The position numbers and the translations under genes are program-made. From the NCBI GenBank assembly GCA_033065855.1, contig JAVXUO010000756.1, positions 1 through 64,000 of the forward strand: a stretch of 64,000 bases of DNA. Reading direction: 5' to 3'. A model generated the notes under the pieces. It did not search any database. It was not told the DNA's origin and saw only the letters and a program-made list of their open reading frames with translations. Positions within the stretch are counted from its first letter, which is position 1. Every line of letters begins with the position of its first letter. Below, piece after piece: positions 2-47,650 of the stretch. Source of the stretch: Escallonia rubra. Its lineage: Eukaryota > Streptophyta > Magnoliopsida > Escalloniales > Escalloniaceae.

Positions 2-1633
2 CGCATTAGTACTATATTTTGGGCGGACCCCCGTTCTAGAGCTGCTTACCAAAATTTTGGGGATGTTGTGACGTTTGACACCACATACCGCACCAATAAG
101 TACTCTATGCCTTTTGCTCCGTTCACCGGGGTGAACCACCACTATCAGTCAATCTCGTTTGGCTTTGCCCTGCTTAGGGATGAGACGGAGGAGTCATTTA
201 CGTGGTTATTTGAAACGTGGCTTCAAGCAATGTATCATATTCCTCCAAAGACCATCATCACCGACCAAGATCTGGCAATGAAAAATGCAATCGCTAAGGT
301 CCTTCCAGATACTCACCATGGACTGTGCACGTGGCACATAAGCAACAAATATCCCGAACGGCTTCACAATGTATATGCAAACCATCCGGAATTCAAGACT
401 GACTTTAATACATGTGTGAAGAAATCGTTGACGGTAGACGTGTTCGAGGAGAGGTGGGCCACGTTAATGGATGACTACAATTTGCACAATCATGCCTGGT
501 TACAATCGTTGTATGCGATCAAGACACAGTGGGTCGGTGCCTACACCAAGAAGTTTTTTGCAGCCGGAATGACTACGACCTCGAGAAGCGAAGCTATGAA
601 TTCATTCTTTGATGGGTACGTAAGCCAGTCTTCAAGTATAGTGGAGTTCGTACTAGAGATGCAGAAAGCCGTTGATAGGCAATTGTACCGTGAGAGAGAA
701 GCCGACGCGGCTACAGTTTACAGGGAAAGAGCCATACTACTCTTTTCACCTTTGGAGGTTCATGCGGCTCAAGTCTATACCAAGGAAATGTTTAGACAGT
801 TTCAAAATGAACTACTAAAGTCTAATCAATATGGCATGACAAAGTTGCACGAGTATTCCACCAGAGATCTCAAGGTTTATGCTTTGACAAACGTGACGAA
901 TTTCGCCAATCCGTGCTCTTCGTCGACTCCGAGGAACATAAGACATTTTACCGTTGCTAAATGTATGGACACCGGGTTGGTAAATTGCAACTGTCAATTG
1001 TTTGAGCATAAAGGTATACTTTGTCGACACGCGTTGAGGGTTTTGAGCTCCAAGAATGCTCGTGAAATCCCTCCACAGTATATCTTGGCCCGGTGGACGA
1101 AGGAAGCCAATAGAGTCCACGGTCACATTCCTTACGTGCCCAATGTTTCAGTTGATTTCGAGCAATCTGAGACGCTGCGATATAATCACCTTTGTAACAT
1201 CATGCACGGTTTATCAATGGATGCAGCGTCAACATTTGATGGGTACAGGTATCAAGTTGAAGCAGCCGCACGGGATAAGGCTAAGCATGTGGAGTTTAGG
1301 ATGGCTGATCCAGAAAGACGGGACACTCCGACTACTCGGACGACTCCAGCCGGTAGATTCAATCGAGCCAAACAGCCAGTCATTGACGGCACTAGCATGC
1401 AAGGTGAGGAGGATGACATTTTTGATCCAATTATTGCACAAACAAAAGGGCGAAAACGAGAAATACGCATGAAGAATCCGATTGAAAAAGCAACGGGTCA
1501 AAAAAAATTGCGAAAGTGTGCGTTGTGTAATAAGATGACTGATCATGACAAGAGAAACCATTATAAAGTGTTAGGTCTCGAACCTGGCAGTATGGTCGAG
1601 GAGGACGATGATGATGAAGAGTTTTGGGGTTAA
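2..1633 (+). CDS. FAR1/FHY3-like MULE transposase, 5' end outside window
   Basis: The frame is open from base 2 to a TAA at 1631-1633 (543 codons visible); the true start and the expected N-terminal FAR1 zinc-binding domain lie outside the window. Visible order (window residues): MULE transposase core with candidate catalytic Asp about 26 (TFDTTY), Asp about 88 (TDQD) and Glu about 197 (SRSEAMN); SWIM zinc finger with Cys329, Cys331, Cys341 and His343 (CxC-x9-CxH); basic stretch with a knuckle-like CALCNK near the C-terminus; acidic tail EEDDDDEE. In this family such proteins are Mutator-type transposases or the transcription factors domesticated from them, acting in the nucleus. The convergent protease gene and flanking arrays favour a resident transposon gene over a domesticated one. 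No stop or frameshift is visible, unlike the two relatives at 37-43 kb and 45-47 kb. Confidence 0.88.
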   Translation, partial: RISTIFWADPRSRAAYQNFGDVVTFDTTYRTNKYSMPFAPFTGVNHHYQSISFGFALLRDETEESFTWLFETWLQAMYHIPPKTIITDQDLAMKNAIAKVLPDTHHGLCTWHISNKYPERLHNVYANHPEFKTDFNTCVKKSLTVDVFEERWATLMDDYNLHNHAWLQSLYAIKTQWVGAYTKKFFAAGMTTTSRSEAMNSFFDGYVSQSSSIVEFVLEMQKAVDRQLYREREADAATVYRERAILLFSPLEVHAAQVYTKEMFRQFQNELLKSNQYGMTKLHEYSTRDLKVYALTNVTNFANPCSSSTPRNIRHFTVAKCMDTGLVNCNCQLFEHKGILCRHALRVLSSKNAREIPPQYILARWTKEANRVHGHIPYVPNVSVDFEQSETLRYNHLCNIMHGLSMDAASTFDGYRYQVEAAARDKAKHVEFRMADPERRDTPTTRTTPAGRFNRAKQPVIDGTSMQGEEDDIFDPIIAQTKGRKREIRMKNPIEKATGQKKLRKCALCNKMTDHDKRNHYKVLGLEPGSMVEEDDDDEEFWG

Positions 1634-1742
1634 TGTTTCAGTTGTATAACGAATAACTTTTATAATGAGCATAAATTTGTGATTTGGTTTGTTGAATCTT
1701 TAATTTGTGATTTGGTTTGTGGATTATTGATATTTTTGGAAG

Positions 1743-2710
1743 GGCCTATTCGCGCCGTCAATACTTCCGAACAATCTTGTAAATTTTTTTATTCATTGCA
1801 CCTCAGGCACGCTAGTTAGCCCATTCGTAAGAATTTCGGCGAAAATCGAGACACGTTATTTTTTGGGTTTTCCTATGAAAGGCCTATTCGGGCACACTTT
1901 AGGGCCCAATTCATAGCTTCCGAAAAATCTTGTAATTTTTTTTGTCACTTTTTTTTCACTCATTGCACCTCAGGCACGCTAGTTAGCCCATTCGTAAGAA
2001 TTTCGGCAAAATACGAGACACGTTATTTTTTGAGTTTTCTTATGAAAGGCCTATTCGGGCACACTTTAGGGCCCAATTCATAACTTCCGAAAATCTTGTA
2101 ATTTTTTTTGTCACTTTTTTTCACTCATTGCACCTCATGCACGCTAGTTAGCCCATTCGTAAGAATTTCGGCAAAAATCGAGACACGTTATTTTTTGGGT
2201 TTTCCTATGAAAGGCCTATTCGGGCACACTTTAGGGCCCAATTCATAGCTTCCGAAAAATCTTGTAATTTTTTTTGTCACTTTTTTTCGCTCATTGCACC
2301 TCAGGCACGCTAGTTAGCCCATTCGTAAGAATTTCGGCGAAAATCGAGACACGTTATTTTTTGGGTTTTCCTATGAAAGGCCTATTCGGGCACACTTTAG
2401 GGCCCAATTCATAGCTTCCGAAAAATCTCGTAATTTTTTTTGTCACTTTTTTTTCGCTCATTGCACCTCAGGCACGCTAGTTAGCCCATTCGTAAGAATT
2501 TCGGCAAAAATCGAGACACGTTATTTTTTGGGTTTTCCTATGAAATGCCTATTCGGGCACACTTTAGGGCCCAATTCATAGTTTCCGAAAAATCTTGTAA
2601 TTTTTTTTGTCATTTCTTTTTTGCTCATTGCCCCTTAGGCACGCTAATAGGCCATATATATGAATTTCGGCGAAAATCGAGACAAATAATTTTTTTGGTT
2701 TTCCTATAAT
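1743..2710. repeat. ~167-bp tandem repeat array, about 6 copies
   Basis: A unit containing GGCACGCTAGTTAGCCC recurs at about 1806, 1973, 2138, 2304, 2471 and 2638, giving spacings of 165-167 bp. Each unit also carries a GGGCACACTTTAGGGCCC block and a T-rich tract. The first unit is shortened and the last is diverged. The array fills the gap between the 3' ends of the two convergent MULE genes. No coding potential is evident. Confidence 0.9.
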
Positions 2711-2810
2711 GTATTAATATCCGTGCACACTTTATCTTCAAATTCTTAGCTATATGACAAATTATGTACATTTTTTTCAGGGGTTCTTTGCTCAGTTCAC
2801 CTTAGCCACT

Positions 2811-5800
2811 CTAGTTAGGATAATGGTAATGAAGCAGTCTAGCATCGTTCTCTTTCAGCTCCCAGGCTATCCTATACCTAAACGTCAAGGCAGCCTTCCT
2901 AGTCCACCATTTATATTTGAGCACCTCCGACCGAGCAATGTAGTCCATGTACTCGAGGACGTAAATCCCGCAATCGTGACTGTTATATTGCTTTGGTCGG
3001 TCTTGTATCATCACGACCGTCCAAGGCTCTACCGTCGAATTCCTGGTGATGGATTCCCCCGAATAATCTCGGCACGCTAGCGAGAAGATAGTAGTCTGCA
3101 TCCAACAATAAAAAAGGTCATCAAGCCTATGTTACAATAAGAATATACTATGAGCCAAGGTCAACCGATAAAAACTAACCACTGCAGTGATGTACTCGCT
3201 GTATATCTGTGCCAGCGACCGCCCAGGAGAGTCCTCCCGTAGGCTATCGTATATGTTGACTGCTCTGTTCGCTGGATGGAGAACTAATAGGAACCAGTGG
3301 TGTTCATGATGGCAAGGTATCATGACAAGGTTCGCATGAGCAGCGTGACATTGATAGTCTGCGTTCAACAGGGCTAACAAGTTTCCAGTTGGTTTCCACT
3401 TACCCATGCCTGCCCCTCGCCTCCTCCATTCTGTGAACTCCCTCATGCTGGTCACCATTAATGGGACAAGATAAGTGGGATACATGTTAAGCTTCAAATC
3501 TTCGCACTGGTTATAACGTAGCTCTCTAATCCGGAGCAGATCTATATAAGCGTTCATGACAAAATTTGAAATATCTGTCTCCGGTGCCAACATTCTCACA
3601 TCCTCGTGACGTAGTAATGATTGAAGAGGAAAGTCTGAGCTATCGACAGGCTCAGGCCCGAAGTAGTGCCGGTCGATCCAATCCCGCTTCCATCGCCTCA
3701 ATGGCTTTGTCGCTTGTCCTTTATCCGACCGGATGCTTGGGCGCGAGGCCTGGATTCCTACTTCGGGCACCTGACTCTGGCGCTGAGAGTCGAACGTGTC
3801 AGGAGGCGAGCGACTAGACGGCTCCCAGAATTCCCTCTGCGGCAAAGACGCGTCAAGAGGCAAGCGACTACACAACTCCCACACCTGACTCTGGGGCTGA
3901 GAGCCGTACGCGGCAGGAGGCAAGCGACTAGACGACTCCCACACCTGATTCTGGGGCTGAAACCCGTACGCGTTGTTCGACAAGCCACTAGACGGCTCCC
4001 ACACCTGACTCTGGGGCTGAAACCCGTACGCGTCATGAGGCAAGCCACTAGACTGCTCCCACACCTGACTCTCGGGCTGAGAGCCGTATGAGTCAGGAGG
4101 CAAGCCACTAGAGGGCTCCCACACGTGACTCTGGGGCTGGGGCTGAGAGCCGTACGCGTCACGAGGCAAGCCACTAGACGGCTGCCCTTGGTAACCCCGG
4201 TACGCAAGACTAAAGTTGTGAAGATCAGTCTTGTACCTGTCAATGTCGCTCTTGAGACTGTCAGGCGCATGCGCGACATACCAGTCAAACTGCTCAAGCT
4301 GCTTGAACACCTTAGTGCCCTGGTCAACCTACAAAAAATGCATAAAAAAATCACCGTCATCATTTCAGGCATGGTCGGGAAGGTGAAAAATTAAACATTG
4401 AAACAACACTAGAGTTGACTTACAATGCTCAATGCCCAGAACTGGTCATAGACCTCACGTGGCGCGTACGATGTCTTCCTCACTTGGGAAGGGCGATTCA
4501 CCCTCGTGCGCGTCACCTTGAGAAACCATTGCAGGTAATCCTCAGTACTGGTGCCGTCGTCCTTGAGCGATACAAGGCTACCATACGTTTCTTGCCAAGT
4601 ATTCCACTGTTGCACCTCGTCGCTCAGCAAATTCAAGGCATCAGGCACCTCAAAATTCAGACCTCGACCGCTCCTGTATGGCCGCATGTCTACAGCGGGT
4701 TTTGGTATCCCTTGTAGACAGCCAGCTTGTTTCATAGCTCGATCGGGCATCTGAAACTCACATACTTCGAAATGAATAAGTGGCACCCGAACCAAACCTG
4801 CCAGCACGTACGACACCGACAGTTGCCAACACGTCTCATCCAACAGATGCATCACATTCCCATATGGCTGCCACGTCACCTGGGATGCATCCATCATATC
4901 TAGTTCCCCCCGATAGAACGTTAGATTGTGGTGAGGGTCTACCCGTCTAGTCCGTTTGGGCCTAGGCCCCCAGGCCCACACCCTAGGCCACGTCTCATCT
5001 GAATCAGCTACGGGGTGTGGACGACCCGTGGGCAGCCTCTCGTAAGACCAAACCTGTGAATGCAAACATAATATGGAATTAGTTATTAATCACGAATATA
5101 TTGACACGTCAACGAAGAATATAAATGCTCAAACCTGTAACAGAGTGATGCAGGCGGAAATGGACTTGGCACCCTTTCTCGTAGCTTTGTGCAATGCTCG
5201 ATATAGGTGCGCAAGGACAGCTGAACCCCACGAATATGAGTATACCTCCTCAAGATCCTCCAAGAACACCATATACTTCGGATGCACCGTGTTTTTCTTT
5301 TGCGTCGGAAGTAATATAGATCCAATAATATACAAAAGGAATGCCTTCGTATACACCGAAAAATCATGAGGAGTGTATTCATCCGGTAGCTCGCCGTACT
5401 GCTCTCTCAGCCATTTAAGTTTTATGCCGTTGGTTGAAAGAGCTTCCCTCGGAATTCCCGGAAAATACTGCCTAGCCATCTTCGCGATGGAAGCAGACGT
5501 TTTATTCGAAGTAATCGGTCTACCGTGACATGGGATTCCAAGTATAAATCCGACGTCCTCTAACGTAATAGTCATTTCACCAAACCGGAAGTGAAATGAG
5601 TTCGTCTCGCCCCTCCATCGTTCAACTAGAGCGGATATAAGGCAATCGTCGTGCCGAGACCAAATCCCGCAATCGGTGAAAACCGTCAAATTTTGATTGT
5701 GTAGTAGTTCTATTTGTTCATCGTTCAGTACCCACTCGGAATGGCCACTTGTGCTTTGACATGTTTCCAAAACACCCCTATCGATACCGTTAAATACGTG

Positions 5801-5866
5801 CCTCGCGACGTGGTCATCGTCATCGTATAGGATTGATGTATCATTAGGTCCAGGGTTGAAATCCAT
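2811..5866 (-). CDS. Plant mobile domain-Ulp1 (C48) protease fusion, 4 exons
   Basis: Exons on the minus strand: 5866-5135, 5053-4424, 4328-3180, 3095-2811, all joining in phase 0 with GT donors and AG acceptors; 931 codons plus TAG, no internal stop. Residues 1 to about 450 match the plant mobile domain (GFILGIPCHGRPI, YSWGSAVLAHLYRAL, VWSYERLP, TWQPYGN). Residues about 504-643 are seven ~20-residue units resembling SSGLPxDAYGSQPQSQVWEP. The C-terminus is a Ulp1/C48 fold with candidate catalytic His798 (HHWFLLVL), Asp815 (NIYDS), Gln873 and Cys879 (QYNSHDCG), in canonical order and spacing. C48 enzymes cleave SUMO or related ubiquitin-like conjugates; the substrate here is unknown. PMD and Ulp1-like genes are known cargo of plant MULEs. 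Convergence with the FAR1-like transposase suggests an accessory protein of one element. Splice sites are read by eye. Confidence 0.85.
3757..4210 (-). repeat. 60-bp coding repeats in the protease gene
   Basis: About seven units of roughly 60 bp within exon 3, encoding the Ser/Gly/Gln/Trp-containing linker between plant mobile domain and protease. The 5'-most (protein N-terminal) units are most alike; the last two have lost residues and diverged. The period is a multiple of three, so frame is preserved. Confidence 0.85.
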
Positions 5867-6049
5867 ATCTGTAAAAACAAAATATAATCGTAAATTAACT
5901 TAGCGTCCATAATATTTACATTCCAAAACTGTAACTGAATCGTTAACCTAGCTTACCAACGCAATAACAGTAGTCATTAAATCATTACTTTAATGTATGA
6001 AAACCATTCCTCACTTCCCACGACTCCGAACGCTTAATAACCCTAGCCG
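5867..6049 (-). promoter_or_regulatory. Likely 5' flank of the protease gene
   Basis: AT-rich stretch between the ATG at 5866 and the first 300-bp repeat. By position it should hold the promoter and 5' UTR of the PMD-C48 gene. No confident TATA box or other element was identified. Confidence 0.3.
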
Positions 6050-6975
6050 CCTTCGCTAGGGTTTGCTTACATTTACGGACTGAAAAGACGCTCGAAAAAG
6101 TAATGAGCGTGAAATTACGAAAATACCCCTCTCGGGCGGCGAATTACCGAAATGCCCCTGGCATCGGGAAAAATCTCAAAAGTGATTTAAGACGCTATTC
6201 TAAGGTTGCTGAGTTCATCCTTGATCTAGAAAGCATTTTAGGGATTTTTCGTCAAAAAATCCCGAACCGGTGTCAGGATCGAGCGCTTAAAAGTTTCATA
6301 GGCAAAAAATTGCTACCGGCTTCGGAATGGCCCGAATTCGTGGGGAATCCTTCGCTAGGGTTTGCTTACATTTATGGACTAAGCAGTCATTCAAAAAAGT
6401 TGAAAGGGGTGAAATTACGAAAATACCCCTATCGGGCGGCGAATTACCAAAATGCCCCCTGGCGTCGGGAAAAATCTCAAAAGTGCTTTAAGACACTATT
6501 CTAAGGTTGCTGAGTTCATCCTTGATCTAAAAAGCATTTTAGGGATTTTTCGTCAAAAAATTCCGAACCGGTGTCCGGATCGAGCGCTTAAAAGCCCGTT
6601 CGGCAAAAAATTGCTAACGGCTTCGGAATGGCCCGAATTCGTGGGGAATGGAACTTCCCGCCTTCGCTAGGGTTTGCTTACATTTATGGACTAAGCAGTC
6701 ATTCAAAAAAGTTGAAAGGGGCAAAATTACGAAAATACCCCTATCGGGCGCCGAATTACGAAAATGCCCCATGGCATCGGGAAAAATCTCAAAAGTGCTT
6801 TAAGACGCTATTCTAAGGTTGCTGAGTTCATCCTTGATCTAAAAAGCATTTTAGGGATTTTTCGTCAAAAAATCCCGAACCGGTGTCCGGATCGAGCGCT
6901 TAAAAGCCCGTTCGGCAAAAAATTGCTACCGGCTTCGGAATGGCCCGAATTCCTGGGGAATGGAACTTTCCAACA
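6050..6975. repeat. Three tandem ~300-bp repeats
   Basis: Units begin with CCTTCGCTAGGGTTTGCTTAC at 6050, 6349 and 6661 (periods 299 and 312 bp). Each contains TACGAAAATACCCCT, GGGATTTTTCGTCAAAAAAT and CTTCGGAATGGCCCGAATTC blocks. Short frames run through every unit but break at the junctions and have no recognisable protein match. Confidence 0.9.
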
Positions 6976-7568
6976 TCCTAGGGTTCTCAAAAAAGTTTCG
7001 CGCGAAATCGCGCTAGCTTGATATTTTAAATTACACTGCGAAGTTACAAGGTTGCGCGTATCAGTTAACCCCTTTCCAGTATTTGGAAAAATCTGAAATT
7101 GTTACCTGATACAGATCTTTTAAAAATAACTAGGGTCTCTTTTTTGCACTTTGGCAAAATCTAGCTCTAGATAGTTTTTATAAATTCGTGAAAAATCATA
7201 ATTTTGACGCCCTAAAAAATCGCTATTTTCGAATCTTTCGAATGTAATACCCCGATTTGTAAACACGTAATTGTGACGCCCTAAACACCAATTTTAGACT
7301 ATGGTAAGAACAATTTAAGCGTAAGAACAATTTAAATTAACATTGAATTATAAGAAAATTCAAAATACTTACTTGTTTTGACTTGAAAAAAATGACGAAG
7401 AAATCCACCGATCTTCTTCTAGCGGTTATCCACCGATCTTCTAGCGTAAATTTTTTTTCGCTCGTATTGTTGTGGAGATTATGTAGGTGAGATAGGGAGA
7501 ATGATGAGAGTGTAAGAAATAATTCGGGGGAAGAGGGTTTTTATAGACAGAAAAGTGAGCCGTGGGAG
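6976..7568. other. Intergenic stretch without a recognised gene
   Basis: AT-rich spacer. Contains GCGCGAAATCGCGC near 7000 and two close copies of TCCACCGATCTTCT near 7406 and 7430. Nothing else supportable. Confidence 0.4.
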
Positions 7569-7723
7569 GGGGGGGGCAACTAATGTTCTGCCATGTGTCG
7601 AAGAGGGGTGGGGGCCAAGCCATGGGAGGAGGTTTTGGGAGGGGGAAGAGGGGGAATCTGCCGAAGGGGGAGTGGAGGCCTAGGGAGGGAGAATGACACG
7701 CGGGGGGGGGGGGGGGGGGGGAA

Positions 7724-7760
<37 letters not shown>

Positions 7761-7915
7761 CTGCCGGGGGTGGAAATTCGGGTGAGAGGGGGTGGGGGCC
7801 AGGGGGGGAATCTGCCGAAGGGGGTGGGGGCCAAGGGAGGGAGAAGGACACGTGGGGGGGGGGGGGGAGAGAGGTGGGGGCCACAGGGGGGGGGGGGGGG
7901 GGGGTTACTGCAGGG
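7569..7915. repeat. G-run-rich block with two ~150-bp repeats
   Basis: Contains very long G runs (about 20 G at 7702-7721 and about 32 G at 7726-7757, plus several of 9-19). The blocks GGGAATCTGCCGAAGGGGG (about 7650 and 7804) and GGGGTTACTGC (about 7754 and 7900) recur, so it is a twofold ~150-bp repeat. Strongly G-quadruplex-prone; G-run lengths may be assembly estimates. Confidence 0.8.
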
Positions 7916-7947
7916 TAAAGGAAAATTCGGGTCAAAGAAAGAAGCCA

Positions 7948-8140
7948 GCGATTGGCCTTGGGCCAATCGCATGACTCTCGCGCGATTGGCCCAAAGCCAA
8001 TCGCCTGAGAGTCAAGCGATTGGCTTTGGGCCAATCGCGCGAGAGTCATGCGATTGGCCCAAGGCCAATCGCTGGACAGTCAGGCGATTGGCTTTGGGCC
8101 AATCGCGCGAAAGTCATGCGATTGGCCCAAGGCCAATCGC
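7948..8140. repeat. 34-bp-period array of six 23-bp palindromes
   Basis: Six 23-bp units start at 7948, 7982, 8016, 8050, 8084 and 8118, exactly 34 bp apart, separated by 11-bp spacers. Each unit is GCGATTGGC, a variable 5-bp centre, then GCCAATCGC; some have perfect 10-bp arms. Unit 1-spacer 1-unit 2 (7948-8004) is the exact reverse complement of unit 3-spacer 3-unit 4 (8016-8072). Units 5-6 repeat units 3-4 with one spacer change. Every unit carries two inverted CCAAT boxes. Confidence 0.95.
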
Positions 8141-8439
8141 GGCCCCTTTTGGCCAAAAATGGCCCAATCAGCTAGAATTATTATTATTTTTTTATGCAAT
8201 CGCTAGTAATACTAGCAATTTGGTGGGAATTTTTTTTTTCCCACCGGTGGGTGTGGATCGATCCCCTATCTTATATACTTAACTTAGTTTAGCTAGTCAT
8301 GCACATTGTATATAAAAAGCAACAGAAGCTGTACACCTGTGAACTCAATAAAAATGCAATTCCAGATTGTACCAACTCAATTTCTTCACCTCTCTTTCCC
8401 CTTAATCACATTCACCATCTCATTTCTATGAAATTAAGC

Positions 8440-9725: not shown

Positions 9726-10613
9726 TCGTAGTACTCGCCGTTGAATATCGGTACTACTCCTTGCGAGTAATTGAAGGTGGTAAGGCTTGAGCTTGCTGCC
9801 AGAGAGCTTCTTGATTAGATTGACCTTCTTTGGTTGTAACTTTCTGCTAGTTCTAAACTTGATTAGATTGACCTTCTTGGAGTTTCAGGAAGCTGAGGTT
9901 TCATTTCTGATGCGGGCAGCTAAAGCAAGAGAATTTCCCCATCCTCAGAGAATCTCCTTGTAACAGCAAGAATTTGACACTTCCCTCACAACATGTAGAT
10001 GAATTTCAGCCGAATATCAACGCATCGCCAAGAACCTGTCTCTTATGCTATGGCTGAACATGCCCCAAATGACGAATTCAACATCAACCTTTCACCGGCC
10101 ACCAAGACCCCATCGCAAATCTTACTTTCATCACAAGAACATGTAGATGAACTTCAGCCGAATAACAACACATCATCAAGAGCCTGCCTCTTATGCTACG
10201 GGAACATGCCCCGAATGACGAATCTTATGTTACGGCAGAACACGCCCCAAATGACGAATTCAACCTCAACCTTCCGTCGGCTACCAAGATCCCGTCTCAA
10301 ATCTTGTAGAAAACTGGCTTTTTGGAGTAGTGAAACCTCCTCTCCCGTATAGTACCGGTATGCCGACTGTGAATTTAATTAGACCAAGTACACCTACTCT
10401 GCTTTTATCTATTGTACACGCCTTTGCTCATCTTATCTTACTCATCGATTAACTGCTTCTTGCTATCTTTGCACTTTTGCACACCATATGTTTGTTGAAT
10501 TGTTTCCATTCTCTTTTTTTGTTGGTTGCTTTTGAAACCACATAATCAACTAACGCTTGATCAGTTTCGTTTATGAGTAAAGACAACAATATAGACTTCA
10601 AGTATTTGCCTTA
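9726..10613. other. Unidentified stretch with a ~150-bp duplication
   Basis: A segment containing CATGTAGATGAA, TTCAGCCGAAT and GCCTCTTATGCTA-like blocks begins near 9991 and again near 10140, with a partial third copy near 10230. A frame at 9999-10352 runs through them but has no recognisable family, so I do not call it a gene. This stretch lies outside the segmental duplication. Confidence 0.4.
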
Positions 10614-11016
10614 TTAGGTGTTTAACATCTGCGTAATGTTAATAAGTTTTGGCAGGATGTCATGAAAATTGGCGGTGGACAAAGGTTTTGTATCGAATGC
10701 CTTGAATGTTGCATATTTAGGTTGTCCTCCTATGCAAGTTGTCTTTGCTTCTTGTTTTCTTGTGAAGACACCAGTTGTTGTCTTTCCTGTAATGCTGAAG
10801 AACTCTTATAGTGGTTAACGAACAAAGGTGATATTCAAGGGACAAAATTCTTGTTTAAGGTAACAGTTCTGTACAAGTTCGGAAGACAACTTCCATAACA
10901 TTTGCACCAGCGCTGCATTTGGCAATTCGTGAAGCCTGATTTGTGAACCGTGGACTTTTATGCATAATGAATTGTCCAGCATCATTAGGATATATGAAAT
11001 GGGTGATCATTTGCAG

Positions 11017-12080
11017 GAGTCAACTAGTACGTATGAGCTCGTAGAGGTAAGCACAGGTGGAAAATTGAGCCGGCATAATGTTCTGGTCCGGAAAATTGGT
11101 CCTGATACAGTTACAAAGTTATCCACATTTCACTATTCTGGCAGTGATTAAACACAGGATCTGCAGGTTAGAATAGTCTCGGATCATCCACGGGGTGTTT
11201 CTCGACAACTTCACGAGTGTATTGTGGCTCACTCGTTGGGAGAGGCCATATTAGATGGGAACGTACAGGTGAACAGGTACTGTGTTTCATCTGTTCCTTT
11301 AGAGTTCTAAAAGTAGCTGGCAACTTGGTGTCTTGTCTTATAATCCAAAATCTATCACCTGGTTATATGATTATATCGTTTATCATTGTTGCTCCTAATT
11401 GATCTTACTATGTATGTTTTCCATATTGAGTGTTGAACATTAAGCTTTATCACCCTCAAGCTCAGTGATATCGATTTCTGTTCATAATATAATAGCTACT
11501 GATGTAGCTAGGCAAGATTTTAATGTGGTTTCTGTTTGCTGTGAAGGCAGAAGTATAATTGACATAGTCAGTTGTCCAATAAGCTATACATTCACTTGCA
11601 ACGAAAATAACCCTTTCTCCGGGTCTGTCTACATGATCACTTGGTAAAATGACAGTTTCTTAAACCTTTGTTTACTGGTTGATATATTTACTTGAACTCT
11701 GTGTGTTTCTTTTGATGATAATGGCTATAAAACTCTTGTATCTAGTGAATATTATTGTATCTCTTTACTTGCTTTAGAACAGAGTTAAACCGTTAAAGGC
11801 TAAGACGCTGTGTGGTTCATATGTTTGTGGATTTGATCACTGTAATGATCTCGCAGGCATGCGCTGCAAACAGACGCAGGGCAGCTAACTAGGAGCCTCG
11901 TCCTTGAGCCTCGTGCATCTGTAAATGTTAAACCAAATCTCCAAATTATTGCCGATGATGCCAAGTGCTCCCATCGAGCTGCAATTAGCTAGTGACTTAG
12001 AGGAGAGCCAACTATTCTACTTCCGTGGACATACAAACGGCTAGAAAAGCTCTAATCTTCTCACTTGGAGCTGAAGTGGT
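11017..12080 (+). pseudogene. SUFD: SUFD/ABCI7-like Fe-S assembly relic, copy A
   Basis: Exon-like block 11017-11276 reads STYELVEVSTGGKLSRHN, GPDTVTKLSTFHYSGSD, a TAA at 11149-11151, then DHPRGVSRQLH and AHSLGEAILDGNVQVNR before a GT donor. A second block from about 11857 reads QTDAGQLTRS, EPRASVNVKPNLQIIADD and, after a frame change, DLEESQLFYF and ALIFSFGAEVV. This order matches the C-terminal half of plant SufD (ABCI7), part of the plastid SufBC2D iron-sulfur scaffold. The N-terminal half was not found. The in-frame TAA is shared with copy B, so the gene was dead before duplication. It is convergent with the helicase. Confidence 0.85.
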
Positions 12081-15000
12081 GAGTCGTTTCCCCAATTCTT
12101 CTACCAGAAAGAACGTAGAAAGTCACCAGCAAAAATTGCTGGACCCGACTCTTCGTTCACAATGACGGTGACATGTACACAAATCTAATCACGTCATGTA
12201 CACAACATGAAATACCATCATGAATGAGGTTATTTGACATGGATAATGGTAACAGAAGTCTTGTCACCTCTGATTTGCATAATAAAGTAGAGTCATAGAA
12301 GATACCAGCTCAGTATTTGGCAATACTAATGACAACAACTCGATCTTCTTTTAGCATGAAACCGCAATGGTACGAAAGCTATTTGGTTCCACCAAAATTA
12401 CCTAAAACTTGCAGCCCTTGATCCTGGTCAGTTCCTTATATTGAGCGCACCTAATTGACTGGCTAATGACTTGCTCGGATCATAAGATGCTAGAGTAAGA
12501 GCATCCGAATCCAGTGGCCATGTCATTGGAAGAACTAATTTCCTGCAGGAACCAAGACAGCTTAAAAAATTGTTGAAGTGCAATATATGAAAGTGTCTTC
12601 ATAAGTAGTCTATAAGATGAAAGATGACAGATTTCATACCCTTCAACACGTCTGTATTTGCAGAGTTTTATGGTATTGGGTGTATAGTTCCCAAACCTGA
12701 TGTTAAGATGCCTTGACACATCCGGGATCTTGCACACTGGCAAAATATCCCAAAACACTATGACCTGAATGTGCATTGAAGCTTCCTTGTGAACATCTAC
12801 ACTCCAAATTAGACTTAGGTACCCATTGACATTGTACTGCTCCAGCAATTGAGAAGAAACCCCAGCCATGTTACTGTCAGTTTTTTCCCAGGAAGGCTGT
12901 CGCCAACCATTTGAAAGCTCCAACAAAAGAGATACCACTTTCTTACGAATCTCTACGTGCTTAATTCTGACCATGGAGTTGCAGAATTCATCGCTGAAGC
13001 AAACCTACAAAAAGTGAAACACATGGCTAATAATGTTTGAAACAATGCACATTCGAATGTTCATGTACTGATTACATTCACTAATCAAAATACTTGGAGA
13101 AGTGAGAAAATGAACATATCCGTTGTTGGACTGAAAGCCATTTTACTTAATATTGCCAGGCCTATGGCTATCCCCGATCAACTATGCCATGGTTATTAAG
13201 AATTTTGCTTCCGTGATGCATATTTCAACCAAAGGGTGAATACCTTCCATTTTGATTTGCCGAACAGTGGACAATCACGACTGAACGGAGTATGGCCAAG
13301 CTCGATCAATGCACGCGTAATAGCTCGATCAAAGTCTTTATCTTCGTCAGCGTTGTAGAAACAACCACGAGTCTTAGCATCTAGAACTAACTCTTTCCAA
13401 ACAGAGCCACTGTTGATCAATGTTACTCCATTCCCCAGTATCCAAAGGTAATACCTACGCAAAGAGATCAAAACTATTTCATGAATTGCAAACCATCCGT
13501 AGACACTCAAAGGCGTTCGAGTGCGTTTTAAAAGGTACCTTGCTCGCGTCAAAGCGACATTTGCTCTTTGAAGGTTGGAAAGGAAACCAATCGACCCGTT
13601 CCAGTTAGACCGCACTGTAGATATAATTATAACATCCTCTTCACCACCCTGAAATCCATCAACCGAGCGAACACTCACAGAGAAGTCACTTTTTGTATCA
13701 TACCTTTTTCCGAGTTTCTCCTGAATAGCAAAAACTTGAGCGTTGTATGGTGATATGCAGCCAACACTGAGCCTTTGCTTTCTGGCAACAGATTCTATAG
13801 TGGAGACAAGTGTTAAAATCCGCATTACATTCTCAGAATATGTAGCAACTATTTCACTTAAGATAGAAACTGACTAGTTTGTGACAGATAAGTACCTTTA
13901 TAGAGGCCTGCAACTATCTCAGCAACCACCGCTACTTCCACCATATTTCTCGGGCTATGGCCGTTACCAAACTCTTCTCTCCCCTTGGCTACGTTTATAA
14001 AAGAGTACGAACCGAACATGCTTCCATTCAGGAAACGCATGTCATAAGTTCTTTCCTTGACATTTGGACCATCCAAAATTTGTTTGTCATAGAACTCCTC
14101 ATTTGGAAATAAGCTTATAGATGGATGCATTCTATACTGGACGTTAAGGAGGTGCTTCGCATGTCCCAATAAAACTAGCCTCTCAAATAAGCTCCTTCCG
14201 AATTCAACATTTTCACAAATCTATGACAGACCAGTTCAAAAGATGTGAGTAATATTTGTAAATTCACTAAGCTAAATCAACAAAAAATATAGTATGAGTT
14301 CAGAAACCTTGCTTTGAACCATAGCCGGCAATTGCCTCTCATCCCCGACAAGTATTGCGTGGCGGAGACCATTGAGCTGTAAAGGAATAGCGGATTCACA
14401 TTCTTTGAGCTGAGCAGCTTCATCAATTACAAGCAGTTCCAGTGGTGTCATTCCTTCAGCGAGTAATTTAGCAGAGCTTGATACAGTGCAAAAAATTAAG
14501 GTTGCATGCCTTATACAAAAATTTCTTATCGTACTTTCCTCAGTTAAATCGGGAAGGGACACTGTTTCACGAAGGGTTTTAAGGATTTCAAGGAATTCTG
14601 TTCTGCACATGCTCAGTTTTGTGATCTTTTTCTTTGCCTCTTCAACTCCATTCTCGCCTTCACTTAATCCTTCATTTACAAGAGCAACATTATGCAGCAG
14701 TGTTTGAAGCAAACCACTAACTCCAATCAAGGTTTTCACCACTTCAAGGGGGATCAAAGAAGTGGGCAAATGTGTGTACAAGATTTTAATACAGTTCATT
14801 AGTTTCTTTCCAATGTCAAGATATTTCTTTACTAGAAACTCTTCAAATGTCAAAACTTTTTCAGCAGCATCAGCATCGTCAGACCCTCCTCCTTCCTGGC
14901 AACTCATTTCTTTTCCTTTCTTGGAAGGTTCCTTCACTGTTTTCTTAATGTTTCCCTTTAAGGTTTCTTCATCCTTGACCTCTTCTTCTTCATCTGGTAT

Positions 15001-15782
15001 TTGGCTTAGGATACCCTTTCCAGGAAATCCGTCCTCAAAATCATCCTCCCCGTTGTCATCGTCACTGTCCTTTCCTTTTGATTTTTCTTTTTCGATGTAT
15101 AAACTGTAAAGCTCTTCAGGGTCTTCGAACAGAAGAATAATCGAGTCTATGCTACCTTTCCACCCAGAAAATGGAGCAAAACACGCGGCAAGACTAGCAG
15201 CACGCTTACTAAGAAATACATCATGAAGTTCTTCACAATCCTGAATCTTCATTCTCTTACCATTACCGAATAGAAGTACATCTCCCAATCCATAAGTGTC
15301 ATATTTGAGGGTATCCTGTACCAAGCCCATAAACCGTGCTGCAACTCCTAGGACTGCAATATTAGTTGGCGCACATGTGAGTGTTCTGCATTTCATTCTT
15401 AGAAGGGCAAACAACAAAGAAGCAACGGTTTTTGTCTTTCCTGTCCCCGGCGGCCCCCAAATTAGTTTCACGCCATTCTGATGATGACACTCTCTAGTAG
15501 CAATGCAACTTAAAACAGCAGCTTCTTGGGAATCATCAAGCTTAATAAACTGGCGAATGGCTTCCCTTAGATTTGCTATAGGGAAACCCCTTATTGTTTC
15601 AGGGGAACATAGAGTACAATTTCCGTCCACCTGAACAGAGAAAGAACTCTGACTGCGTCAATTTTGAAATGTAACAAAGTAAAGGATCGGATTTTAGGGT
15701 GTGGAACATCTCAAAGAAAGGGCGCAGTAATAAACTGAAGAAATGCAAAAATTCAGTGCAAATGGTCTCTAGATTGAGGGAC

Positions 15783-16225
15783 ATGTTGATATATGTCTTG
15801 TATTTATGTCCCACATCGGTTACTCAAAGAAGGTTGCAACTTGGCCCTTAGTATATAAGACATCTTGTCCCACATTGGTTGCAGAGAGAAGATCACTACT
15901 TTCTCCAAGTATAAGTAAGGTGTCTTGTATTGTGTTTAAGGGCAAGAGAGGAGTCTTCTTTGAGTAAGCCAAGAGAGGAGAGTCATTCTCTGAGTAGGCG
16001 AAGAGAGAAGAGTCCTTTTCTAAGTAGGAAAGAGAGGATAGTCTTTCTTTAGGTAGGTAAAGAAAGAGAGTCCTTCTTTGAGTAGGAAAACAGTTGAGAG
16101 ATAGACGTGAGCGAGCGTTGTAAATCTAACTTGTGCAAAGAGAATTTGAGTTCTCTCAGTTTTCTTGTGCTCTCTTGTTTGGATATCGTATATTATACAT
16201 ATTTTTCAAGAGCGATTTCATAACA
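15783..16225. mobile_element. 443-bp solo LTR in helicase intron 2
   Basis: Copy B runs straight through GATTGAGGGACAGAAGTAAG. In copy A this is interrupted by a TG...CA segment starting TGTTGATATATGTC and ending TTTCATAACA, flanked by GGACA (15778-15782 and 16226-16230). TG/CA ends, a 5-bp target duplication and an empty paralogous site define a solo LTR. The 5' sequence resembles copia LTRs. Confidence 0.93.
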
Positions 16226-16921
16226 GGACAGAAGTAAGTAACAAACAAATAGTGACTCTTACAGCGTGACTAGGTTGCAGCACATTGCGAATAATGTTCG
16301 TGTTCGTGCCTTCGAGATCCAAGTTCAATGCATTCCATATACGAATATTTGTGGTCAGGTTTGTGAGAGAAACGGCAAAAAGAATTCCTCTCTCCTGTTC
16401 ATTTTTCTCATATACAATGGGCTTTGATGACAAGATGAGAAGAACATCAGAATCTTCACTCTTCCATTGAACAAATGCAAGGAGATACGGTGTTTTAGGC
16501 CGGTTCAGATCATTAACGTATTTTGGTCTTACATCTGTCAAGGCAATGAGATCTCCCACCTCCGGCTCATACTCTACTTCACCTTTCTCAGTATCTCTTA
16601 CTGTCATGAGAAAAAGATGGTAATACAAGTCCTTGGGAGGTTCATGATCCTTTGATATTGTTACACCAAATATTGGACAGATAGGTGCACGAAACAACGT
16701 AGCCATGTGCGAGGATAAATCAGAACGTGTTTCCTCAATAAGGGGGTAGATGAATGACTTCAAGTAAATAGATGTAGACGAAAAGTCTTGGGGATTTCTG
16801 CAACCTGTGAAATGTAGAAATTAGTTCATGATATGCGAGTACACTACTCTTGAAAATTGTCATTTGCAAACATTTGAAGATATGTGAGTGCGAGATACTA
16901 TAGAGGTTCTTGAAATTTATA

Positions 16922-36253: not shown

Positions 36254-36349
36254 AAGCTGATCCGTTGATAGCGTTAGCAAAATAGGAGAAGTTGCAAGCG
36301 CGATCTAGCCGTCCATCCTTTCTAAATCTTTTTTTTTAAATTGTCAGTC

Positions 36350-36594
36350 GTCCGCTACATAGTGTAGCGGACGGACCTTTTTACCAGATTGCCCCTCCTC
36401 CTTTGTCCGCTATACAGTGTAGCGGACAACTTTTTTATCCTGACATGTGACAGTCAAAAAGTAGTCCGCCCACTACACTATGTAGCGGACACCTTTTTCA
36501 CTGACACTACTGACACAGTGCTTAATTTCTATACGTTTATTTATGCACATGTCAGAGTTGTCCACCATATTGTCCGCCATACAGTATCGCAGAC
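36350..36594. repeat. Dispersed GTCCGCTACA palindromes, left cluster
   Basis: Palindromes at 36350-36372 (GTCCGCTACA-TAG-TGTAGCGGAC, perfect arms), 36405-36427, 36464-36490 and 36572-36594, the later ones imperfect. The same motif recurs at 43-45 kb. Decayed relatives lie near 35650 and 35740. Confidence 0.88.
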
Positions 36595-37396: not shown

Positions 37397-40300
37397 TAGA
37401 TATGTCAATGGGCCGGGCTTGGGCCGGCCCAGCCCGAGCCCAGCGGGCCTCCAACGAAGCCGGGCCGGGCCAGAAGAAGTGAAAACTGGGCCGAGCTGGG
37501 CCTAAAAATTGATATACGTGGGCCCAGTCCAAGCCCTGGCCCTAGGCCCAATATTTTAGGGCCGGGCTTGGGTCAGGCCAGGCCCAAATTTTTTCCTTTG
37601 GTTTTCTTTCCCTATTCTTAACTCCTTGTTATTCACATTTATAAATTAAATGGTTGGAGACTTGGAGCAACATCAAAAGCCTCAATCGCCAAATGAAACT
37701 AGTGTAAGAGGTTCCCCATTGACGTTGTAGTACGGTTCCCGTTACACAAGAGGGGCACCATCAGTTAAACATGGGTGACTCTCTCATTAGTTTGTCTACA
37801 TCCTCATTTTCTATACACATCCTTATCTTTATTGTAAAACCATGACCACTGCAAAGAGGTTGCTACAAACCCTTTAAGACATTTGATTTCCAAAAAATTT
37901 ACATTCCGAATGTGAAATTTTGAGAAATATTAATATGTATGTAAACAATAATATTTCTAGCATTCAAATATTCAAACTGATAAAGGTAAATTGAAGATAA
38001 ATGTGTTCATAGGCCCTCCTCCTTTTATCCGGACTTAGGACCGGCTGCTTGTAAACAAACAGGCGAAGTTACCTATTTTTTTTATATATATGAAAAAATA
38101 TCTATCTTGTTTCTAAAAAAACTATCTTTTGTAAAAAAATTTATTCTTAAAACTTGAGAAAAGGAAAATAAAAATAAATTACCTAATCATCTGGAAGTAT
38201 TTCAACTTCCGAGTCACTGCTCTTCCTATCGTCAATCGTTATATCTTGCTCGCGGTATTTCGCATCAAGATAATCCTTCCAACATACACATAGCTCGAGC
38301 GACTCGGGGTTAAGACGACTCATCTTGTCATCCAAAACCCTCCCACTCACTAAAAATGTCGACTCTGAAGCAACCGTGGAGGCTTGCACCGGCAGTACAT
38401 CCCGTGCAATTTGGGATAAAGTTTTATACATGTTTTGGTTTTGTTTCCAAAAATTTAACAAATTAAAATTAACTTGTTCTTCCACTGTTAAATCAGAATA
38501 ATGATCAGTATTGGAATATACACCAATCTCATTAAAAGAGGAAAAAGAAGACGAACCTGCCGAATTAGAGGTACCTTCACCTGGTAGTTGTCTTGCTACT
38601 AGATGTTCAAAGCCCTTAAGATATGACGAGTAGTGCCTCTCAGCAGTCGATGATGAAGCTCGGCTGCGCACGTCAGTAGAATTGCGATACAAGTTGAACA
38701 GTTCCTCAAATGTATTGCTCACTTTCGTTGTGAGGTTGGTTATGTCCTCTACTGAGTAGCACATTAATTTTGATATCTCGTTTATCGAGACGTTCACGCC
38801 ATGCAACTTTAACCTAGGTTCTAAACAAGTAGCCACAGCAAAAATAACATGTAGTTCACTCCAATAGTTATTAAACTTTTCATCCATCACTTTTACTATT
38901 TTCGTAAAGGGTCCTATATATCTCCATTTTGTTAATATTGTAGCCATCTTGAGAATTTCTATTACAGCGAGAGGAGAGGTGGGATAGTACGTACCAGACA
39001 ATAAATTGGTAGACGTGTAAAATACCTCCAAAAATTCAGCTAGATGTGTAGCCATCTGCCATTCCAGGTGAGTTGGCAAGCCGGCTGGGAACGAGGTTAG
39101 TAGAAAATGCGTATATACTTCTTTGTATGCGAGAATATGTAAAAGCATATGATATGTAGAGTTCCACCTATGGACCACATCTGTAACTGGTCTTTTGCGA
39201 GGCATATTATACTGACTACACAACGTTTTAAATTGTTGTGTTCTCGAAGCCGAACTAGAAACAAAAGCTGTCATACCCCTCATTTTGACAAGAATATTTC
39301 CTGCAACAGCTAAACCATCTTGAACAATTAAATTAATTACATGACAAACACAACGAACATGAAATAATTGACCAGAAATTACAGGTTTGAGGCTCTCCTT
39401 TAAAGCAGCAACAACAGCTGTATTGTTAGTAGCATTATCAAAACTAATACTCATAATCTTATTCTTTAAATTAAACGTGGTACATGCATTAATTATAATA
39501 GTAGCAACGTGTATTGCATCATGCGGAAAAGGAAAGAGTTCGAAAGCGATGCTTCTCTTGTTCATAATCGAATCTGCCTCAATAATGGGCCGTCACACAA
39601 CTATAACTAACAAGAGTAAACGGAGATTGTCAAATATCAGATTTAAGGCTAACTTTACCGTCAAAATTATCAAAATAATCAATCAGGCGTGCCTTAGCAG
39701 CCTTATACTGCCGGAGTGCATCGGATCTAGATGTGTTTCTATGAACCTTTTTTTTTTTTTTTTGCACGTGGGTGTTCATATATCTAGTGTGCTTAGCACT
39801 ATCGGCAAAACTAAAGGCTTGTTCATCGTGAATAACAAATTCAGCGAGACCGTCTCTTTGCTCTCGCTGATTATAAACAAACAACTTACCGTCAAAAGAT
39901 AACTGTGTTTGGGTAGGTTCGACGTGGCCGCTTCGAGGTGCACACTAAGTGTAATGCCTGTTAAGATGTCCATTACCACAACCAGTAGCAAATAATTTAG
40001 CACAATACTTACATCGAGCTTTTCGGGCGCCGCCTTCCACCGTAATTTGATCAAAATGATTCCAACACTCGGCTTTCTTTTTTTTCACCTTTTGGGCTTC
40101 TTGCTGATTACCGGAAGTATTGCTCGGCCCTTCTCCATCGTGACCGCTCATCAGGTTAACATCATGCCACGGAGTAGTAGCTTCACCAACCGAGCTGCGT
40201 CCTTGACTAAAATGCGGACTATCTTGTGAAGGCGTGTAATTAATATCTAGAATATTTTGATTGAACTCCCAATTGGTTTGGATATCTATCATACAGCCCG

Positions 40301-41396
40301 TACTCATTCGTCCAGGAACGAATGGTTGTGGTGGTGCTTGGATTGGTGTTCGTGATGGCCGTGGTGGTGGTGTTTGTGCTGGTGGTGGTGCTTGACCTGG
40401 TGGTGGTGTTTTTCATGATGATGATCCACACCTGAATTTCTTCAGTATTCTAGACATATTTGACGCTAAACTTTTTTACTAGATTGAAAAAATAAAACTA
40501 GAGCAGTAGTAAGTAATTAGAAATAACAATTAAAAAGAATTGAAGAGTAACTAGGGAATAAGAGTAATTAGTAATTCAAAATTGGCCGGAGTTAGTAATT
40601 AAAAATAACTTTGTAATAGTAATTAATAAATAAGAATTCACTAATTACTAATTAGTAAACAAAATAATTAGAGAGTAACAAATGAATAAGAGGAATAGTT
40701 AGTAATTAGAATTTAACACGAGCAGTAATTAGTAAACAGGAGTAGTAATTAGCAAAAGTACTAATTAATAAACAAGAGTAGTAATTAGCAAGAGTAGTAA
40801 TTGGAGAGGAAAATAGTAGCAAAGCTTGTAGAAATGTAGAATGTTTAGATAAGAGAGAGTAAGAAGATTGGTGTGAAAAATTAAAAAGGAAGAGTGTGAA
40901 TTTATAGATTTTTCAAAGTTCACAAAAGACCAAAATACCCCTAACAACTAGCCGTTTATAGTTGTTGGGGAGGGTAAAAGTGTAAAAAATCTTAAAAGAT
41001 TTAAAAAAGTTAACTTGGACCAAAATATCCCCCAAACTAGCCGTTATATAGTTGTTGGGGGGGGGGGGGGTAAAAGTGGAATATTTTGAATTAGTGGGGA
41101 ATATAGCCGTTGGGGGGGGGGGGGGACAAAAATTTGAAAAAAGTGGGCCAGCCCAGAATTTGGGCCAATTTAGGGCCAGATCCGGGCCAATTTTGGGCCT
41201 GTTTCGAAGCTGGGCTTTTTTAGGGCCGGGCCTAGGCCGGGCCATTTTTTCTGAAACCTTAGTCTCGTCCAAGCCCAGGTCCAAGGCCTTAAAAGTTTTT
41301 GGCCTACACTATTCATACTCCGGCTGGGCCGGCCCGGGCTTTTTTTGGACCAAAACAGGCAGGGCCACGGGGGCCCCGGCCCCATTGACATCTCTA
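37397..41396 (-). mobile_element. hAT transposon, 4,000 bp
   Basis: Terminal inverted repeats TAGATATGTCAATGG (37397-37411) and, reverse-complemented, TAGAGATGTCAATGG (41382-41396) differ at one base. Flanking 8-bp duplications CACGTAAG and CACGTAGG also differ at one base, as expected for an aged hAT insertion. Both ends carry subterminal GGGCCGGGCC-type repeats in opposite orientation (37411-37600; 41130-41380). Removing it rejoins the FAR1-like frame (ETHV followed by GNDD). Confidence 0.94.
38183..40307 (-). pseudogene. hAT (Ac/Tag1-like, BED finger) transposase
   Basis: Three minus-strand pieces. 40307-39945 has a BED zinc finger (CKYCAKLF...GHLNRH). 39884-39630 has GLAEFVIHDEQAFSF and RSDALRQYKAAKARL. 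39565-38183 has the RNase H-like core (IMSISFDNATNNTA, LFHVRCVCHVINLIVQDGL) and the C-terminal dimerisation region (ARDVLPVQASTVASESTF). Frame changes between pieces and stops near 39629 and 39590 show it is broken. Intact proteins bind the element ends and cut by a DDE mechanism. The host element is presumably immobile on its own. Confidence 0.88.
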
Positions 41397-43084: not shown

Positions 43085-43681
43085 ACTACATAGTGTAGCG
43101 AACGTACAGAAAACAAAAAAAAATTCTAAGTGTTGAAGTTTAGAGATTCTGTTGTATTGTCCGCTTGTAGCGGACGCTTGTAGGCCCAAAAAAAATTTAA
43201 GTGTTTCATCCGCTACACAGTGTAGCTGACGCTTGTAGGCCCAAAAATTTTCTAAGTGTTGGAGTTTATAGATTCTGCTGCACCGTCCACTGCACAGTGT
43301 AGCGGACGCTTGTAGGCCCAAAATTGTTTTACTACATAGTGTAGCGGACGTACAGAAAACAAAAATTTTTCTAAGTGTTGGAATTTAGAGATTCTGCTGC
43401 ACCGTCCGCTACACAGTGTAACGGACGCTCGTAGGCCCAAAAAATTTCAATGAGTGTAGCGGACGTATGCAAAACAAAAAATTTGCAAGTCCGCTACACT
43501 ATTCAAAATTTGTTCTGCAGAGCCGTCCGCTACATTCTGTAGCGGACGTAAAGAACACCAGAAAATTTCTAAGTGTTTGAGTTTTTAGGCTCTGCAGAGC
43601 CGTCCGCTACATTGTGTTGCGGACAAAGAGAACACCAAAAAATTTCTAAGTGCTGGAGTTTTAAGACTCTGCAGAGCCGTC
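43085..43681. repeat. Palindrome-bearing minisatellite, middle cluster
   Basis: About eight irregular units, each with a palindrome of the form GTCCGCTACA-nnn-TGTAGCGGAC followed by an A-rich tract and TTCTAAGTGTTGGAGTTT. Two subtypes occur: TGCTGCACCGTCC with GCTTGTAGGCCC (43150-43440) and CTGCAGAGCCGTCC (from about 43518). It directly replaces the 3' end of the + strand FAR1-like pseudogene. Confidence 0.88.
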
Positions 43682-44670
43682 GCTAATTTTGTTTTACGTA
43701 TTTTAATTTTTTTTTTATGAAATTAGTGACGGAATAAATGTTTTAGCGATGGAATCAATAATCTCAATATCTCAAATGCACGATTAACAATCAAAAATCA
43801 TCAATTCACAATCTAAAATCATCGATCAATAATCACAATTCTCAAATGCACAATTAAGAACCTAAAATTATCAAACAAATAATCAATATTCAAATAACAC
43901 AAAATTGTTCAAAATGCACATATCCAATGCGATTAATTTGATTTAGGGTTTAATTAGGGCTCAGAGTTCAACATTGGAGGAAAGCTTTTTTACAAGTGCT
44001 TTGATCAAACACCAACATTTGAAAACGCATATGCCCCATGTGTTCAAAGATTACAAAGTCCCCTAGATGGAGGTCATGCTGCTGCACGAATTTGTTCCAA
44101 CCCTATTCGAAACAAGTTTCCTCTTGGCCGCATTTCTTCTTGATTTTAACAAGCCATGACCCCTTGTGGCTGGTTAAAGTTACTTCATTTGATCTCATCA
44201 TTATGCTAAGCAATCTGCAAAAGGCTACTGGTATGGCCTAACATATTCATAATACAGTAAGACATGTAAGTTTTTAACCAAAGATAAAAATTTTAACATA
44301 CACGAAAACACAGAGAAAGAGGGATGGCCTACAAGTCTTGTATGAAGACCAGGCATCATGACCTTGAACTAGTGTCTGCCGAATGAAACGTCCCTGTTCA
44401 CCGAAGCAGAAGCCATCGGGACAGATCTGTCGCCAGAGGTGGCGCCGCGTCGGGGGAAGGACGGGGATTTCACTGGAGGCGCTGCGGCCTTGAAGGGTGG
44501 ACGAGCCTGTCACCGGAGGTGGCGCGGCGTCGGGGGAGGACGGTGTTGTCTCCGAAAATGTGGGTCACCGTAGAGGGGGTCACGGGTGGGTAAGATGTTC
44601 GAGACAGAAAGAGAAACTAGAGAAATAAGAGTGGTCAATCTGATTAATATTTAACATGAGTTTTAGCGAC
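43680..44670. mobile_element. Possible ~1-kb insertion in the minisatellite
   Basis: The array stops at GCAGAGCCGT and resumes near 44671 with GTGTTGGAGTTTTAA. The intervening DNA begins CGCTAATTTTG and ends ATGAGTTTTAGCG, so CGCTAA/TTAGCG may be very short inverted ends. The interior holds AT-rich sequence, then a GC-rich stretch (44395-44600) with no recognisable protein. Ends and duplication are weak. Confidence 0.4.
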
Positions 44671-44671
44671 G

Positions 44672-45035
44672 TGTTGGAGTTTTAAACTGTGCAGAGACGT
44701 CCGCTACATTGTGTAGCGGACACAAAGAACACCAAAAAAAAATTCTGCAGAGTCGTCCGTTACATTGTGTAGCGGACCCCTTGAAAACCAAAAAATTTCT
44801 AGACTCTGCAGAGCCGTCCGCTACATTGTGTAGCGGACATAAAGAACACCAAAATCTTTCAAAGTGTTGGAGTTTTAAGACTCTGTAGAGCCGTCCTCTG
44901 CATTGTATAGCGGACATAAAGACACCAAAAAAATTCTAAGTGTTGGAGTTTTAAGACTATGCAGAGTCGTCCACTACATTGTGTAACGGACATAAAGAAT
45001 GCACTATGTCCGCTACACTATATAGCGGACGGGGC
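44672..45035. repeat. Palindrome-bearing minisatellite, right cluster
   Basis: About six units of the CTGCAGAGCCGTCC subtype, each with a GTCCGCTACATTGTGTAGCG-type palindrome, e.g. near 44700, 44755, 44817, 44894 and 44972, plus GTCCGCTACACTATATAGCG at about 45009. It borders the 3' flank of the inverted FAR1-like pseudogene. Confidence 0.88.
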
Positions 45036-47516: not shown

Positions 47517-47650
47517 AAGCAGGGGCAGTCTGGCGCTATGGCTGTTAAGATTGACCTTGCCAAAGCCTACGATCGTTTTGTATCGAATTTCACTGAGTAT
47601 GCTCTCTCTAAGTGTGGCTTTCCTTCGTGTTGGACTCACCGTATATATGG
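47517..47650 (+). pseudogene. LINE reverse transcriptase fragment
   Basis: Plus-strand reading gives GQSGAMAVKIDLAKAYDRF, then EYALSKCGFPSCW, the core of plant non-LTR reverse transcriptases (KIDLAKAYDR with its invariant Asp). Only about 45 codons survive. Confidence 0.75.

Follow-up and report, generated by a model that had tools for sequence, protein, structure and literature searches.

We describe here what is tentatively the right-hand part of a Mutator-like element (MULE) of the FAR1/Jittery type, found at the start of contig JAVXUO010000756.1 of Escallonia rubra (assembly GCA_033065855.1). Positions 1-64,000 of its forward strand were analysed and are termed the window. Two convergent genes lie tail to tail: a MULE transposase gene on the forward strand and, on the reverse strand, a gene whose product joins a plant mobile domain (PMD) to an Ulp1-type C48 protease domain, here called PMD-C48. 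A preliminary description of this DNA had proposed such a facing pair, and frames and domain matches bear it out, both genes being open within the window. Our leading interpretation, put forward with reserve, is that the two genes belong to one element and that PMD-C48 has a self-targeted anti-silencing role like that of the VANC proteins of Arabidopsis VANDAL elements. We rank it first because the locus has a look-alike of each sequence feature of VANC proteins and of KIU, their Ulp1-bearing form. Several of these features, namely noncoding arrays, a peptide array and a motif, are absent from the preliminary description, and they make the counter-silencing idea testable.

The transposase gene (2..1633, +) runs uninterrupted for 543 codons and a stop from the window edge, beyond which lie the gene start, the N-terminus and the left end of the element. 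It has the hallmarks of a MULE transposase, with catalytic residues D26, D88 and E197 and a SWIM finger (CNCQLFEHKGILCRH), and it matches the Pfam MULE domain (PF10551, 3.7e-33), the SWIM domain (PF04434, 2.5e-7) and the ZSWIM1-3 RNase-H-like model (6.9e-10). Its catalytic spacing, D-62-D-109-E, is near the 62/110 of the FAR1-bearing Jittery transposase and unlike the 62/99 of TED, as taken from published positions (PMC9569675) for one member of each kind. The spacing thus indirectly supports a Jittery/FAR1 type. The label 'FAR1-like' given in the preliminary description keeps that support, together with a FAR1 match below cut-off (E 0.069, 14.3 bits versus a cut-off of 28.1) upstream of a related relic in the window, 60% identical to the transposase over 223 aa; any FAR1 domain of the transposase itself would fall beyond the window edge. 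Relatives of the transposase were absent from the PDB at E up to 1, and from viral_contigs, a set of viral contigs with little bearing on a plant element.

The PMD-C48 gene, whose stop codon lies 1,177 nt from that of the transposase gene, has four exons on the reverse strand. Exon 1, from the ATG (5135..5866), encodes the first part of the PMD and also matches DUF1985 and DUF7745; exon 2 (4424..5053) encodes the second part of the PMD; exon 3 (3180..4328) a linker, the peptide array and the first C48 part with H798 and D815; and exon 4 (2811..3095) the C48 part with Q873 and C879, and the stop. Joined, they give 931 aa without a stop. The coding introns number three (81, 95 and 84 nt, all phase 0); a model with four coding introns was therefore rejected, and the four phase-0 introns counted in the preliminary description come down to these three, a fourth in the leader being predicted only. 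The splice model is supported because the PMD profile continues without a gap across the junction of exons 1 and 2 (profile positions 15-180, then 181-346).

In the joined protein the PMD is full-length (PF10536, 5.8e-71, profile 15-346 of 347) and the C48 domain scores 1.8e-17. DUF7745 is matched by exon 1 at 6.1e-6, at its cut-off, and by the joined protein at 6.7e-8; DUF1985 (PF09331) is matched by exon 1 at 9.4e-8 (32.6 bits) and by the whole protein at 2.1e-6 (28.2 bits), for a cut-off of 35.1 bits. The full His-Asp-Gln-Cys set that had been claimed for the protease holds: H798, D815, Q873 and C879 stand in the right order and align with those of SENP2, which scored highest among the 16 PDB sequences retrieved at an E value no higher than 1. 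The domain may thus be an active protease. A PDB search with exon 1 gave a best match of only E 0.29, and no relatives of exon 1 were found in viral_contigs or genome_contigs (viral, bacterial and archaeal contigs, of little bearing on a plant element). An AlphaFold model of exon 1 was rejected as evidence for its mean predicted local distance difference test score (pLDDT) of 39.2.

Between the PMD and the C48 domain lies the in-frame peptide array (3768..4183, -), with a 60-bp unit in 6.9 copies. Its translation, residues 504-643, is made up of seven peptide units: five have 20 aa, one has 22 and one has 18.

Upstream of the start codon, a leader intron of 1,504 nt is predicted (5869..7372, -). 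Its donor, GTAAGT at 7372, is the single match to GTAAG[TA] on the reverse strand in 5860-7700, and its acceptor, TTTTTACAG, has its last base at 5869, two bases ahead of the start codon. The predicted intron holds 23 ATGs, and the leader exon that would precede it, predicted at 7373..7545 (-) with a TATA box (TATAAAAA from 7545 down), has 168 nt without an ATG; a second TATA box occurs at 7182. These signals point to a leader intron. Between the predicted TATA box and a palindrome array described below, 7560-7920 is very G-rich (a run of 56 bp of G occupies 7702-7757) and may be a weak spot of the assembly.

Two noncoding tandem arrays flank PMD-C48. Array A (1784..2707), a 167-bp unit in 5.6 copies, takes up most of the spacer between the two stop codons; array B (6047..6968), a 312-bp unit in three copies, lies on the upstream side of PMD-C48, in the predicted leader intron. 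For comparison, 8000-64000 contains a single array of period above 100 (62239-62610, 2.2 copies). The last unit of array A has diverged, keeping 127 of 170 positions, yet a 23-nt block, the one long run conserved within it, is unchanged (column-shuffle P 0.03), and this block contains the motif core TTCGGCRAAAA. Allowing up to one mismatch, that core occurs 11 times in the 64 kb, each time in an array (six in A, five in B) and on the forward strand (shuffles: mean 3.6, max 8). Array A has six sites of the form TTCGGCRAAA, all forward. The broader pattern TCGKSRAAAA occurs 16 times (shuffles: mean 1.4, max 6), with 13 occurrences in the arrays, five in A and eight in B, the latter all forward; of the other three, one (7186) also falls within the predicted leader intron and two (42539 and 46092) are in the transposase regions of two MULE relics. 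When the kept block was tested against array B with both natural variants, units 2, 3 and 1 were equalled in 2, 1 and 29 of 400 shuffles. A one-strand motif common to arrays A and B is thus indicated, as a hypothesis to take to other copies. Array B also has, in two of its three units, a 23-bp near-palindrome, GGGATTTTT-CGTCA-AAAAATCCC (6241-6263 and 6854-6876), which overlaps a TCGKSRAAAA site.

If the leading interpretation is right, the left gene would supply the transposase and the right gene an accessory protein acting like VANC or KIU. PMD-C48 would bind short motifs repeated in both noncoding arrays of the element, the one in the intergenic spacer and the one in the leader intron of PMD-C48 itself, and the DNA would be chosen by the PMD, the peptide array or both. 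The C48 domain would then strip SUMO-type modifiers from silencing proteins held at the arrays, and the element copy would shed its silent marks, DNA methylation among them, so that both genes could be expressed. The genes, their domains, the catalytic residues and the arrays are observed; DNA binding, protease activity, anti-silencing and the membership of both genes in one element are what we infer in this scheme. In a bolder version, which we consider improbable, the PMD and the VANC N-terminus (DUF1985) would form one superfamily of target-recognising domains, and PMD-C48 would bind TCGKSRAAAA in its own arrays and remove SUMO-type marks there; if true, this would hint that the host proteins MAIN and MAIL1 read DNA through their PMD.

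A number of observations weigh against a VANC-like role. The blind comparisons of the two arrays, both made before the kept block was inspected, were negative: the longest word common to one unit of each array was 10, a length reached in 157 of 500 shuffles, and the 8-mer enrichment between arrays was reached in 68 of 150 shuffles for any word and 66 of 150 for words with at least three G/C. The motif patterns were written after the sites had been seen, and the units within one array are not independent of each other. When only the G variant was used in the block test on array B, units 2 and 3 were equalled in 84 and 78 of 400 shuffles and unit 1 gave no hit; the TTCGGCAAAAA site has been lost from one of the three units. 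In the protein, the DUF1985 match stays under the Pfam cut-off and may be common to all PMDs, and the peptide array lacks purifying selection, with a pooled ratio of nonsynonymous to synonymous differences per site (pN/pS) of 0.92 between units. Finally, both MULE relics lack a neighbouring PMD or C48 gene, and no second copy carrying both genes was seen in the 64-kb window, where all tblastn matches of PMD-C48 other than the gene itself had E values of 2.5 or more.

The pair had been described as intact, which is borne out only for the PMD-C48 coding region; the window does not reach the transposase N-terminus, where a FAR1 domain would be expected, or the left end of the element. How much decay the open frames allow was estimated from their 4,428 nt, in which about 4.7% of substitutions create stops, with assumed indel ratios. 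At 1% neutral substitution and 0.1 indel per substitution, about six lesions would be expected and the probability of finding both frames intact is 0.002; it becomes 0.015 at an indel ratio of 0.05 and 0.0003 at 0.15.

The relics, both with in-frame stops, provide another view of the transposase. One starts at 41857 (+), the identity given above applying to its first 223 aa, and the other lies at 46783-45242 (-), 46% identical over 550 aligned positions. Compared with them, the open transposase frame has pN values of 0.24 and 0.19, with pS saturated (0.82 and 0.79); the two relics differ from each other by a dN of 0.105 and a dS of 0.37 over 153 codons. Because of these ratios we consider the transposase lineage to have been under constraint.

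Three other explanations have to be set against the VANC-like one, which we place ahead of them because of its VANC/KIU look-alike features and the already published idea of PMD anti-silencing; they follow in descending order of probability. The two genes may be unrelated neighbours, a PMD-C48 gene of the host or of another element having by chance ended up next to a convergent MULE transposase gene. Genic PMD-protease fusions are known (PMC7156037), and the pair is absent at both relics. Their stop codons, though, are 1,177 nt apart, most of this space is taken up by array A, which has a one-strand motif in common with array B upstream of PMD-C48, and in several grapevine families the MULE transposase is followed by ULP sequences, in direct or reverse orientation (PMC2528002). 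On balance we find chance neighbourhood unlikely.

One two-gene MULE is also compatible with a PMD-C48 that has no DNA targeting, its PMD competing with the host proteins MAIN and MAIL1 (and with PP7L) for places in their silencing complex, or its protease removing SUMO at large, while the arrays reflect ordinary repeat turnover. The complete set of C48 catalytic residues and the negative blind motif tests agree with this, as does the involvement of the PMD proteins MAIN and MAIL1, together with PP7L, in silencing; a counter-silencing use of PMDs made by transposable elements has been suggested (PMC7156037, PMC8616336). Such a role would leave unexplained why the arrays lie beside PMD-C48 and have a one-strand motif in common, and we judge it rather improbable. 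The least probable of the three, in our estimate, is that PMD-C48 is a passenger without a role, captured recently by the MULE and still open because its capture or last jump was recent. Gene capture is indeed common in MULEs, and many of the captured pieces are nonfunctional (PMC2528002). The open frames, taken by themselves, agree with an age below about 1% neutral change, and the pN/pS of the peptide array likewise suits a passenger. Genes captured by MULEs are, however, mostly fragmentary, while PMD-C48 has a full-length PMD, the full catalytic set and intact splice sites.

The window also contains palindromes that may be transposase sites. Upstream of PMD-C48, six 23-bp near-palindromes of the type GCGATTGGCC-TTG-GGCCAATCGC (7948-8140) form a tandem array (7947..8141) and may be subterminal protein-binding sites, for example for the transposase. 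GCGATTGGCC was also found at 22121 and 22481; these were set aside, as they sit in another repeat without the palindrome. A different 23-bp palindrome, GTCCGCTACA-NNN-TGTAGCGGAC, occurs repeatedly on the immediate 3' side of each MULE relic (43085-45032) and again at 36349-36490, and it too may represent subterminal transposase sites. Its half-sites, with at most one mismatch, number 31 in the window against 1.3 expected. Palindromes of the general form 10-3-10 (at most one mismatch) number 24, some being overlapping readings of one array, and the shuffles (n=20) gave 0-3 each.

Elsewhere in the window, the earlier statement that every other mobile-element gene is broken stands for the two other MULE transposases; the remainder includes long and open hAT and DUF4283 frames. 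Among the hAT transposase pieces (38186-40412, -) is a frame of 469 aa that encodes dimerisation and RNase-H-like domains; upstream of it, in a different frame, lies a weak match to a BED finger, below cut-off. A 362-aa open frame at 47611-48696 (-) encodes DUF4283 and a CCHC zinc knuckle, a combination that we take to resemble plant LINE-type elements. A stretch encoding a SEN1-like AAA_11 helicase is duplicated (10599-16910 and 48674-54291, three blocks of 87-91% identity); about 440 bp (15784-16225) is absent from the second copy.

Most of the components seen here have precedents. Grapevine MULEs, in families that include Jittery-like ones, carry ULP sequences, and ULP-bearing MULEs of melon and rice are cited in the same report (PMC2528002). 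These MuDR- and Jittery-like elements are like our locus in having an Ulp1/C48 sequence downstream of the transposase, in direct or reverse orientation; in the part of that report compared here, no PMD, noncoding arrays or motif is described for them. In grasses and Amborella, MULEs have captured PMDs of class C (PMD-C), which there are fused to the transposase (PMC5418596), whereas here the PMD is in a separate convergent gene, fused to C48. Genic PMDs are likewise fused to enzyme domains (a protease, a kinase or, in MAIL3, a PP7-type phosphatase; PMC7156037), but those are host genes, and here the fusion lies beside a MULE transposase gene and arrays. An anti-silencing role for MULE-borne PMDs has already been suggested (PMC5418596, PMC8616336).

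VANC proteins have a DUF1985 domain, and their variable regions contain peptide motifs in tandem (PMC5735166). VANC21 triggers methylation loss in its own family; its targets are motifs that keep a single orientation within noncoding tandem repeats, some of which are in introns of VANC21 (PMC5735166, PMC10398659), and its motif is YAGTATTAY (PMC13317346, PMC5735166, PMC10398659). VANC genes with Ulp1 are termed KIU, as in the Kaonashi/KIU-bearing VANDALs (PMC13317346). Our locus has in common with these systems a putative accessory gene beside a MULE transposase gene, a tandem peptide region, Ulp1 (as in the KIU type), and noncoding arrays with, here, candidate motifs in one orientation, one of the arrays being in an intron, here a predicted one, of the accessory gene. 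It differs in its motif and in its transposase, which by spacing is of the Jittery/FAR1 type, and its binding and demethylation would be predicted ones; the likeness of its N-terminus to DUF1985 is a match below cut-off, the PMD scoring far higher. Because of this low DUF1985 score, and with DNA binding as yet conjectural, we do not file PMD-C48 as a member of VANC/KIU.

What the Ulp1 domain does in MULEs has yet to be explained (PMC13317346), and the same holds for the PMD, although MAIN and MAIL1 are needed for transposon silencing (PMC5418596, PMC8616336). A gene that unites the two domains, appears intact and lies next to arrays of a candidate motif offers an entry to both questions. ULP proteases in MULEs, MULE-borne PMDs and PMD-protease fusions are thus already published; for their combination here, with PMD-C48 encoded by its own gene next to that of a MULE transposase, no report was found among the best-ranked matches in the open-licence literature of PubMed Central (PMC). 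What appears to be new here is the pair of noncoding arrays with a candidate one-strand motif in common, which together with the peptide array and the DUF1985-related N-terminus resembles the arrangement of VANC and KIU.

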